A DNA stretch of 64,000 nt from assembly GCF_003946545.1 (NCBI RefSeq), contig NZ_RHOA01000004.1, forward strand, positions 62,001 through 126,000. The letters run 5' to 3'. Below are positions 33,997 through 63,138 of this stretch, piece by piece; the first letter of the stretch is position 1; each line of letters starts with the position of its first letter. The notes below the pieces were generated by a model. The model saw only the letters and a list, made by a program, of their open reading frames with translations, did not search any database and was not told where the DNA came from. The position numbers and the translations under genes are program-made. This DNA comes from Levilactobacillus tangyuanensis. Its GTDB lineage: Bacteria > Bacillota > Bacilli > Lactobacillales > Lactobacillaceae.

Positions 33997-34995
33997 TCAA
34001 GTTGGCTGATCGGCGGAACCTTTTTTCACGAAGGCACGATCGGCCGGCATGACCATCAAAGCGGTTTCGGTGACGCCGTATCGGGTATGAAGGAGCTGAT
34101 TAATGGTCTGGGTGAGTTGATAGATGGTGGCTGCCGTCATGTTGGGATTAACGGCAATTGTCACACTGACCATAATCAAGTTGCCGTCGTAGTAAGCCTT
34201 AATGAACAGGACGCGTTGAACGGCCGGCAAGTCGGCAACGGCCTGTTGATAGGCGGCCTCCAACCGTGGGTCGAAGTAGTCGACCAGTTTCAGTGCGCAC
34301 TGCCGGAAAATTTGAATGCCCACAAACAAGATATATAAACCCAGGGCAAAGCTGGCGGCGCCATCGATCCAATTGATGTGGAACCAGCCAACCCCCACGA
34401 TGGTGAACAGGGTGACGAGACTGGTTAGAACGTCGGTGAAGGTATCCTTGGCCGCGGCTGCCAACGCAGTATTTTTTAGCTGATGGGCCCACCGGCGATT
34501 GGACCACCAGAGTAAGGTGAGCAATAGGCCCGAAGCTGCCGCTGCGGCACCCGATAACAATGGTTGTAAATGTTCGTGGGATGGCCAGATTAAATGGTGA
34601 CCGGTCTCGAATAAAATATCCGCGGCAATGAAGACCATCATGATCCCGGCCAGCAGGGTATAGATTGTTTCAAAACGAAAACGAGATTGCTGCGTTCTTG
34701 GCCCAACGTGTGGACGGTCGACGGCAGCAATCGGGGCGCCCCACAGATCGTTGTCGCGAGTTTTACCGGCAATGTACAGGCCGGTCATGAGGAGACTGGT
34801 AGAAAAGATGCCGGATAGATTATTGAGGGCATCTGCCCGTAAGACTTGTGAGTGGCCAAACCAGGCTGCCAAGTCTTCAACGAGGAAGAGCGATAAATAA
34901 ATACCGGCATTTTCCCATAAATGACGGTTTGCCAGATTAAGATTGGCGACCACCGTTTGTTGCACGTGCTGCCAGTCCTGATTAGTGTCCTTCAT
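33997..34995 (-). CDS. Cation diffusion facilitator metal exporter
   Basis: This protein of about 332 residues belongs to the CDF family, which exports Zn2+, Mn2+, Fe2+ or Co2+ in exchange for protons. It has six membrane helices (about 40-220). The metal site lies in ADALNNLSG near residue 56 and AAAKDTFTDVLTS near 180, giving an Asp-rich site instead of the His-Asp pair of many Zn exporters. A cytoplasmic C-terminal domain follows. Tandem ATGs lie at 34998 and 34995. The second has 8-nt spacing from AGGAGG. That SD is buried in a long leader hairpin. Manganese is a plausible substrate, since lactobacilli accumulate it, but this is inference. Confidence 0.85.
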   Translation of the reverse strand: MKDTNQDWQHVQQTVVANLNLANRHLWENAGIYLSLFLVEDLAAWFGHSQVLRADALNNLSGIFSTSLLMTGLYIAGKTRDNDLWGAPIAAVDRPHVGPRTQQSRFRFETIYTLLAGIMMVFIAADILFETGHHLIWPSHEHLQPLLSGAAAAASGLLLTLLWWSNRRWAHQLKNTALAAAAKDTFTDVLTSLVTLFTIVGVGWFHINWIDGAASFALGLYILFVGIQIFRQCALKLVDYFDPRLEAAYQQAVADLPAVQRVLFIKAYYDGNLIMVSVTIAVNPNMTAATIYQLTQTINQLLHTRYGVTETALMVMPADRAFVKKGSADQPT

Positions 34996-35000
34996 CATCT

Positions 35001-35060
35001 TCACCTCCTGGGCCTGCTGCCGGATTTCTGGCTCCTATTAAGCCACAGGCGAGGAGGTGA
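35001..35060 (-). promoter_or_regulatory. SD-sequestering leader hairpin of the CDF exporter
   Basis: On the minus-strand RNA, TCACCTCCT (35060-35052) is perfectly complementary to AGGAGGTGA (35009-35001), which contains the SD. Inside it, GCCTG/CAGGC and TGGCT/AGCCA continue the helix, giving 9+5+5 base pairs with small bulges. As folded, the ribosome cannot reach the SD, so translation should need a signal that opens the hairpin. I do not see yybP-ykoY (Mn2+) or other known metal-riboswitch motifs. Confidence 0.6.
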
Positions 35061-35097
35061 GCTGCTTCACGTGCTCGTTAAACGGGGAGTTAGGCAT
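35038..35097 (-). CDS. Possible leader peptide of the CDF exporter
   Basis: A 19-codon frame, MPNSPFNEHVKQLTSSPVA, starts upstream of the SD-sequestering hairpin and runs through its 5' arm. It stops (TAA) in the apical loop. A ribosome translating it would open the stem and free the SD of the exporter. Against it, no SD precedes the ATG. Low confidence. Confidence 0.25.
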   Translation of the reverse strand: MPNSPFNEHVKQLTSSPVA

Positions 35098-35142: not shown

Positions 35143-35175
35143 AAAAAAACCACATTCAATCGAATGTGGTTTTTC
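35143..35175 (-). terminator. Terminator of tmRNA
   Basis: ACCACATTC pairs with GAATGTGGT around AAT(C), with a T-run on the minus-strand side (seven A on the plus strand). Confidence 0.85.
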
Positions 35176-35205
35176 TCGTCATAGGTTTGGTCATACTGGC
35201 ATTTA

Positions 35206-35573
35206 TGGAGCCGGCGGGGATCGAACCCGCGTCCTAGCATATTGCCAACTTAACGTCTACACGCATAGGCAGACTACTTATAGTTTCACTGAATAACTTG
35301 CCGCCTGTCAGGGCCCACATACTCAGCTAACCTGATTCATCTCTTCTAACGTACTTCAGGTGGGAGCCGTTAGCGTAAGCCCGTTAAATTTAGGACCCAG
35401 ATCTAGACCGCGGGCAAGCCTAGGAGGATCTACGTTAAGCGCCTATTAAGCAGCTAAAGCGTAAGAATTGTTATTATTTTTTGCAGTTATAATAAACTGG
35501 ACCTTTTAACGTAGATGCCGCTACGACGCGCAGTCAAGCTTCAACCTATACCAGTCGAATCCAGAACGGCCCC
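35206..35573 (-). ncRNA. ssrA: Transfer-messenger RNA
   Basis: The 368-nt RNA has the tRNA-like ends: 5' GGGGCCG pairs with 3' CGGCTCC, and the T-arm GGGTTCGATCCCC is next to the 3' end. The resume codon GCA begins the tag reading frame at 35484, which encodes AKNNNNSYALAA and stops with TAA at 35446. This is the lactobacillar tag. The 3' CCA is not encoded. tmRNA rescues stalled ribosomes and marks the peptide for degradation. The promoter is read as TTGCAA-16-TAAACT upstream on the minus strand. Confidence 0.97.
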
Positions 35574-35848
35574 ATGACGATACTGATACAGTTTATCACA
35601 ACTTGCTGGGCTTGCAAAACTAGGCGCTCAATAAAGGGCAATAAAACCCCGAAGTTCCTTAACGATATAGTATAATAAAACATGTAGGTGCCAAATATTT
35701 ATTGATTAATGGTGAACCGACAAAAAGTTACAGAAAGATCATGGTTCCATCATGGCCCCTTCCAATGAAATTGGTAGGCTTAACGCCATATAAACCCTAA
35801 CTTTTTACTGGCTCCGTAGAAGGACAGTAATTTTCTCTGGAGGTCGCA
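35574..35848. other. Intergenic region between tmRNA and the two-component operon
   Basis: It holds the divergent tmRNA promoter at its left and a TATAAT box (35671-35676) for the response-regulator gene. The TATAAT leaves a 5' leader of about 165 bases. No clear terminator or known riboswitch is seen in that leader. Confidence 0.45.
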
Positions 35849-61805: not shown

Positions 61806-61896
61806 GCAAAATTAATTGAATCTCGAATGGTGGCGGCCCCACCTGAGCAGAAAATTTGGTAAAATGAAACCAATTACTGTTCAGGAGGGACCGCCA

Positions 61897-63138
61897 TTGA
61901 ATTTTAAAGAGAAAGATCCAGCTCTTTGGGGAGCTATTGCCAAGGAAGAACAACGACAAGAGGACACCATCGAACTGATTGCTTCGGAAAACATTGTGAG
62001 TCAGGCCGTTCGGACGGCACAGGGGTCGGTGTTGACCAACAAGTACGCGGAAGGTTATCCAGGCAAACGTTACTATGGTGGCACCCAATACATCGATATC
62101 GTTGAGCAACTGGCGATTGACCGGGCCAAGGAATTGTTTCACGCGGAGTATGCGAACGTGCAGCCACATTCCGGTTCTCAAGCTAACCAGGCGGTCTATG
62201 CAGCGCTCCTGAAACCGGGAGACACCATCCTGGGGATGAGTCTCGACGCGGGGGGCCATTTGACTCACGGGGCCAAGGTTAACTTCTCCGGGAAGCTTTA
62301 CCAAACTTACGGTTACGACTTGAATCCCGACACAGAACGACTGGATTTTGACGCGATTCGTGCTCTGGCACTGAAGGTTAAGCCCCAACTGATCGTTGCC
62401 GGCGCGTCCGCCTATTCCCGGACGATTGACTGGCAGGCTTTCAGGGCCATTGCCGACGAGGTCGGTGCTTATCTGATGGTCGACATGGCGCACATCGCCG
62501 GCCTGGTTGCTGCCGGACTGCATCCCAGTCCCGTAGGCATTGCCGACGTTGTGACGACCACTACCCATAAGACCTTGCGTGGACCCCGTGGGGGGCTCAT
62601 CTTGTCTCAAGAAAAGTACGCCAAGCGGTTGAATTCGGCGGTATTCCCGGGGACGCAGGGGGGACCTTTGGAACATGTGATTGCCGGGAAGGCTGCGGCC
62701 TTCTTTGAAGATTTACAACCAGAGTTTAAGGACTATGCCCAACGGATTATCGACAATGCGCGGGCGATGGCAACGACCTTCGCCGATCTGCCAACGGTTC
62801 GAGTGGTGTCTGGTGGGACCGACAATCATCTGATGACGTTGGACCTTTCGGCAACCACGTTAAATGGGAAGCAGGCGCAAGATTTGTTGGATAGCGTGAT
62901 GATTACCACTAATAAGGAAGCCATTCCTAACGAAACTCTGAGTCCATTCAAGACCTCTGGCATTCGTCTTGGAACCCCGGCCATTACGACTCGTGGCTTC
63001 ACCCCAGCCGATTGTCAACAGGTTGCGAAGATGATTGTGGAAACACTCCTTAATCCAGAAGATGAAGCCGTTTTGAACCGGGTTCGTTCACAGGTCCGAG
63101 AATTGACGGCAGCTCATCCATTAACAGTGTTACCTTAA
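61897..63138 (+). CDS. glyA: Serine hydroxymethyltransferase
   Basis: GlyA converts serine and tetrahydrofolate into glycine and methylene-THF, the main source of one-carbon units. The 413-residue protein starts at TTG, 7 bases after AGGAGG, giving the family-typical [19 protein letters not shown] longer frame from 61816 has no SD. PLP-site motifs are LIASENIVS (about 26), HSGSQANQA (about 90) and the Schiff-base Lys in [14 protein letters not shown] (about 226). It lies 91 bases after tsaC and precedes upp. Confidence 0.96.

Follow-up and report, generated by a model that had tools for sequence, protein, structure and literature searches.

The leader of the cation efflux family (CDF) exporter gene in Levilactobacillus tangyuanensis forms a hairpin that buries the gene's own Shine-Dalgarno (SD) sequence, and this element is best explained, with a probability of about 0.55, as a lineage-specific, constitutive SD-masking stem-loop that lacks a sensing part and damps translation of the exporter. 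What can be seen directly is the hairpin, its rank within the genome, and its absence as a stable fold from one homologous leader. In a transcript carrying both arms of the stem, the SD would be closed and the CDF exporter poorly translated. Such transcripts would most likely be read-through products of the tmRNA gene situated just upstream, and the damping would be constant, with no response to metal, heat, or translation of the leader. If functional, the element would show how a gene lying behind a tmRNA gene stays untranslated in read-through RNA. The pertinent features, given in coordinates of the window (i.e., the whole 64-kb stretch of DNA that was analyzed), are as follows:

33997..34995, minus strand: CDF (cation efflux family) exporter gene, 333 aa from ATG 34995 (Pfam PF01545, 8.1e-30)
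35001..35060, minus strand: SD-masking stem-loop in the minimum free energy (MFE) fold, with 5' arm TCACCTCCT (35060-35052), SD arm AGGAGGTGA (35009-35001), and an inner helix of 35050-35045 with 35017-35012
35038..35097, minus strand: 19-codon open frame MPNSPFNEHVKQLTSSPVA, probably not translated, from ATG 35097 to TAA 35040-35038
35143..35172, minus strand: terminator-like hairpin and T run 3' of the tmRNA gene (sequence and fold, -13.6 kcal/mol)
35203..35573, minus strand: tmRNA gene (ssrA), co-directional, 142 nt upstream of the 5' arm (Rfam RF00023, 6.1e-73)

Along the minus strand, the tmRNA gene (35206-35573 by its ARAGORN boundaries) is followed by the terminator-like hairpin, which is absent from the pattern-scan listing, by a leader of ~145 nt, and by an intact CDF gene. 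The GTG start assigned to the latter in the ORF list (35004) falls within the SD. Judging from sequence comparison, the start codon is likely ATG 34995, because the preceding ATG (34998) is ACG in Levilactobacillus senmaizukei, where ATG 34995 is kept.

A preliminary description of this DNA had proposed that TCACCTCCT pairs with the SD-holding AGGAGGTGA upstream of the CDF exporter, and this pairing is indeed found as a 9-bp SD helix in the MFE fold. The further extensions proposed for the helix fared less evenly: a 6-bp GCCTGT/GCAGGC helix is part of the MFE fold, whereas TGGCT/AGCCA is not, its place being taken by GCT/GGC and GGA/TCC pairs. The overall stability of the leader is only moderately unusual; the 108-nt CDF leader segment (MFE -35.7 kcal/mol) was equaled by 7 of 200 shuffles (z -2.04), and a 161-nt segment by 11 of 200 dinucleotide shuffles (z -1.58). 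Occlusion of the SD itself, as modeled, is unusually strong. Specifically, opening the CDF SD is predicted to cost 13.6 kcal/mol, relative to a median of 3.6, which ranks third among 267 SD-bearing genes of the genome. The background for this ranking was drawn from the 64-kb window and 20 further stretches of the L. tangyuanensis genome, from whose 413 gene models those 267 were kept that had an SD match of at least 5 bases and enough upstream sequence. Likewise, when the SD was held fixed and the upstream part shuffled, only 1 of 1000 CDF leaders reached an opening cost of 13.6 kcal/mol. SD-occluding mRNA hairpins serve in constitutive translational damping, and the CDF leader resembles them in its predicted fold, with an SD held in a stable helix beside the start codon and a degree of pairing well above background; the damping of CDF is itself a prediction. 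Selection could also account for a rank of 3/267 together with a perfect 9-nt SD.

Among the relatives found, L. senmaizukei DSM 21775 is the closest. A CDF homologue is present in all 35 Levilactobacillus genomes, and in only two of these, L. tangyuanensis and L. senmaizukei, does the CDF gene adjoin the tmRNA gene; among 30 CDF loci, ARAGORN located a tmRNA solely at those of the same two species (L003 and L004, respectively). When the 144-nt leader was compared by blastn (word size 7, E 0.1) with loci from across the genus, namely 30 CDF loci and 30 of the 35 tmRNA loci, the matches were confined to L. tangyuanensis (L003, L064) and L. senmaizukei (L004, L072), the latter leader being homologous at 68% identity over 116 columns. 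L. senmaizukei was also the sole match when genome contigs were searched with the CDF protein. A DNA search with 156 nt of leader across 301 Lactobacillaceae genomes returned its own genome and 30 others through short matches (E 0.0016 or weaker), and was insensitive, having missed the L. senmaizukei leader that was found via its CDF gene; no match emerged from plasmids searched with a 601-nt query.

In L. senmaizukei, opening the SD is predicted to cost 4.0-4.2 kcal/mol, corresponding to rank 115/267 on the L. tangyuanensis scale, and the difference persists as upstream sequence is varied from 80 to 200 nt (3.5-4.2 kcal/mol vs. 12.9-13.7 in L. tangyuanensis). Mapped onto the L. senmaizukei leader, the L. 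tangyuanensis structure evaluates to +0.6 kcal/mol, as opposed to -31.0 in its own sequence, and the MFE fold of that leader (-13.6 kcal/mol) contains a 4-bp hairpin touching the SD but not the 9-bp helix. Homologous exporters lacking a partner for the SD had been named beforehand as evidence that would count against the hairpin. The single homologue is such a case insofar as the stem is unstable in it, although column by column 6 of the 9 outer pairs (14 of 21 overall) are still formable there, one through a double change and three through C to U facing G. To say that the stem is "simply gone" would therefore be too strong, although the count of 14/21 is at chance level: the same substitutions, when moved to other same-base positions, left means of 13.1 pairs (all) and 5.7 (outer), with P values of 0.38 and 0.57. 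Bases have changed at 7/9 positions of the anti-SD arm, 2/9 of the SD arm, and 7/27 between the arms. In a sliding control, the L. tangyuanensis register reached 83% of cells vs. 26-55% when slid, half of the cells being those of L. tangyuanensis, the source of the structure. Structure retention with compensatory changes, as would mark a conserved regulatory RNA element, is thus not apparent in the one homologous leader compared, and one homologue at ~68% leader identity is thin evidence. L. senmaizukei appears to do without the stem despite the same tmRNA-CDF layout, and the stem is therefore probably not needed there. The nearest relative, then, can lack even a striking SD-masking hairpin, and so a relative is needed before such leaders are called switches.

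The ten next CDF orthologue loci (L005-L014; 58-68% protein identity) have unrelated leaders and cannot test the CDF stem, because the leader matched only L. tangyuanensis and L. senmaizukei. With starts chosen by hand, their SD opening costs were 10.3, 5.9, 4.0, 3.7, 5.4, 5.4, 8.3, 7.5, 4.0, and 7.0 kcal/mol, that is, at least 7.0 in four of ten and above the L. tangyuanensis median in all; some of these leaders are near-identical to one another, and hence the values are not independent. The CDF gene may thus commonly have a fairly closed SD. These modeled costs, which are compatible with a tendency to weak CDF translation, constitute the main result favoring function.

The same SD-masking test points to a better candidate within the window, the leader of glyA:

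61816-61900, plus strand: glyA leader, an SD-masking long inverted repeat behind prmC-like and Sua5-like genes

Both the SD and the TTG start of glyA lie in the 3' arm of this repeat, whose loop holds an extended -10-like TTTGGTAAAAT, and the SD opening cost of 15.3 kcal/mol ranks first of 267. Across 30 homologous glyA leaders of the genus, SD opening costs at least 7 kcal/mol in 13, and TTTGGTARAAT occurs at 28 of the 30 loci, masked or not, residing in the loop of the masked ones. The arms differ by indels among leaders, and in an RNAalifold analysis of 10 of the 13 masked leaders the covariation term was +0.13, a value that does not support covariation, and both partners had changed in one of 16 pairs. 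The glyA repeat may silence read-through from the upstream genes, with an mRNA made from the loop promoter lacking the 5' arm. The SD-opening method is able to detect a recurring SD mask where one exists, and the CDF leader is unlike glyA in this respect in its one homologue.

How the CDF gene is transcribed bears on two competing explanations. A 9-of-12 promoter scan found no minus-strand site in the interval separating the tmRNA and CDF genes, and by a custom promoter score the best site fell below the shuffle mean in both L. tangyuanensis and L. senmaizukei, results that favor the damping stem-loop; the CDF mRNA may arise from tmRNA-gene read-through or from a weak unrecognized promoter. 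The stretch between the hairpin arms does contain a weak extended -10-like TGGCTTAAT, and were the mRNA to start there, after the 5' arm, the hairpin would be absent from the main transcript and its complementarity would be a matter of chance, without effect. This account ranks behind the damping stem-loop and strikes us as somewhat unlikely. It fits with the instability of the stem in L. senmaizukei, with the better preservation of the between-arm stretch relative to the anti-SD arm, and with the presence of TTTGGTAAAAT inside the SD-masking repeat of glyA, but it is at odds with a promoter score no better than shuffles and with an SD opening cost beyond that of 999 of 1000 shuffles. The same putative promoter would take on another meaning if the stem were a guard that silences CDF in transcripts read through from the tmRNA gene, and if a promoter located between the arms gave rise to a short mRNA whose SD is free, a logic likened here to that which the glyA leader appears to use. 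In read-through protection of the IS10/IS50 type, the transposase SD is sequestered solely in transcripts that originate outside the element. The CDF leader resembles this arrangement in that a stem masking the SD follows an active transcription unit, yet differs in that its gene encodes an exporter and that a promoter between its arms could not be demonstrated, the best promoter score not exceeding shuffles. Such a guard is given little credence. Upstream of the tmRNA gene by ~95 nt, a 9-of-12 promoter-like site (35667-35694, minus strand) could give a long pre-tmRNA.

Two further explanations would make the stem responsive. The preliminary description had raised a metal-, temperature-, or translation-dependent switch, and a stem opened by metal, temperature, or a small RNA so as to turn on the exporter would suit the strong, specific SD occlusion ahead of a metal exporter, as well as the 6/9 outer pairs formable in L. 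senmaizukei, one of them through a double change. The yybP-ykoY (Mn) and NiCo riboswitches are found in metal-exporter leaders and may control the SD, and to that extent the CDF leader is similar, but neither family was matched in Rfam scans of the window (at threshold) or of the leader (permissive). An Mn riboswitch of mntP is named in the abstract of PMC11647493, and a literature search found no title naming this CDF leader. The earlier remark that no known metal-riboswitch motif is evident holds, since no such family reached the gathering score in the window or the leader; the permissive leader scan gave five weak, sub-threshold matches to unrelated families (best E 0.077). RNA thermometers such as ROSE and fourU rely on an SD helix of marginal stability, whereas the core stem here, with a predicted -31.0 kcal/mol at 37 C, exceeds the stability expected of a simple thermometer and likewise matched no Rfam family. 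Together with the unstable stem and accessible SD of the sole homologous leader, and with pair retention at chance level, these results leave a regulatory switch improbable.

Even less can be said for coupling to a leader peptide, whereby translation of the 19-codon frame would melt the 5' arm and free the SD. As previously described, this frame runs across the 5' arm, ending in the apical part of the hairpin, and in L. senmaizukei a frame is also open from the same ATG to a TAG at the same place. In leader-peptide attenuation of the erm type, a short frame overlaps the anti-SD arm, a likeness that the CDF leader shares; it differs in that no SD precedes the ATG of its frame and in that coding constraint is not evident. 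Compared with L. senmaizukei, the 19 codons comprise 7 identical ones, 12 with non-synonymous changes, and none with synonymous changes, relative to 45 synonymous and 17 non-synonymous changes over the first 133 CDF codons, and the third-position pattern of the latter is missing (8, 10, and 5 changes at codon positions 1, 2, and 3 vs. 14, 6, and 52 in CDF). Moreover, 23% of shuffled leaders contain an ATG frame of 19 codons or more. The sequence thus offers neither an initiation site nor the conserved coding expected of an attenuator, the suggested leader peptide finds no backing, and this coupling seems highly improbable next to a constitutively damping stem-loop.

An artefact of divergent SDs was also considered for the CDF stem and rejected, there being no ATG at SD distance on the opposite strand of the leader, beyond which lies the tmRNA gene. 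Elsewhere in L. tangyuanensis, a transposase gene on contig C11 (L111 4770, plus strand), presumably IS30-like, has its SD in a strong hairpin that ranks second of 267; by analogy, this is what would be expected for read-through protection. A search of 35 Levilactobacillus genomes with TCACCTCC...GGAGGTGA yielded matches in six. In four genomes (G017, G027, G029, and G030), these correspond to a nearly identical 64-nt stretch with facing SDs (L119, L122, L123, and L124). At L119 and L124, the two of these four loci that were examined, both strands bear SD-plus-start frames, and the inverted repeat exists there because two facing SDs make it. At L121/L120, the opposite strand carries no more than an SD and an ATG with a 20-codon frame. 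Finally, at L106 4060 (minus strand, L. tangyuanensis contig C6) and at L120 in G024, the SD of a gene for a 128-aa protein is paired to an SD-like site of the opposite strand that precedes a 20-codon hydrophobic frame, MAGVLGIIVVVVMLAGSSNN, an arrangement kept in two species.
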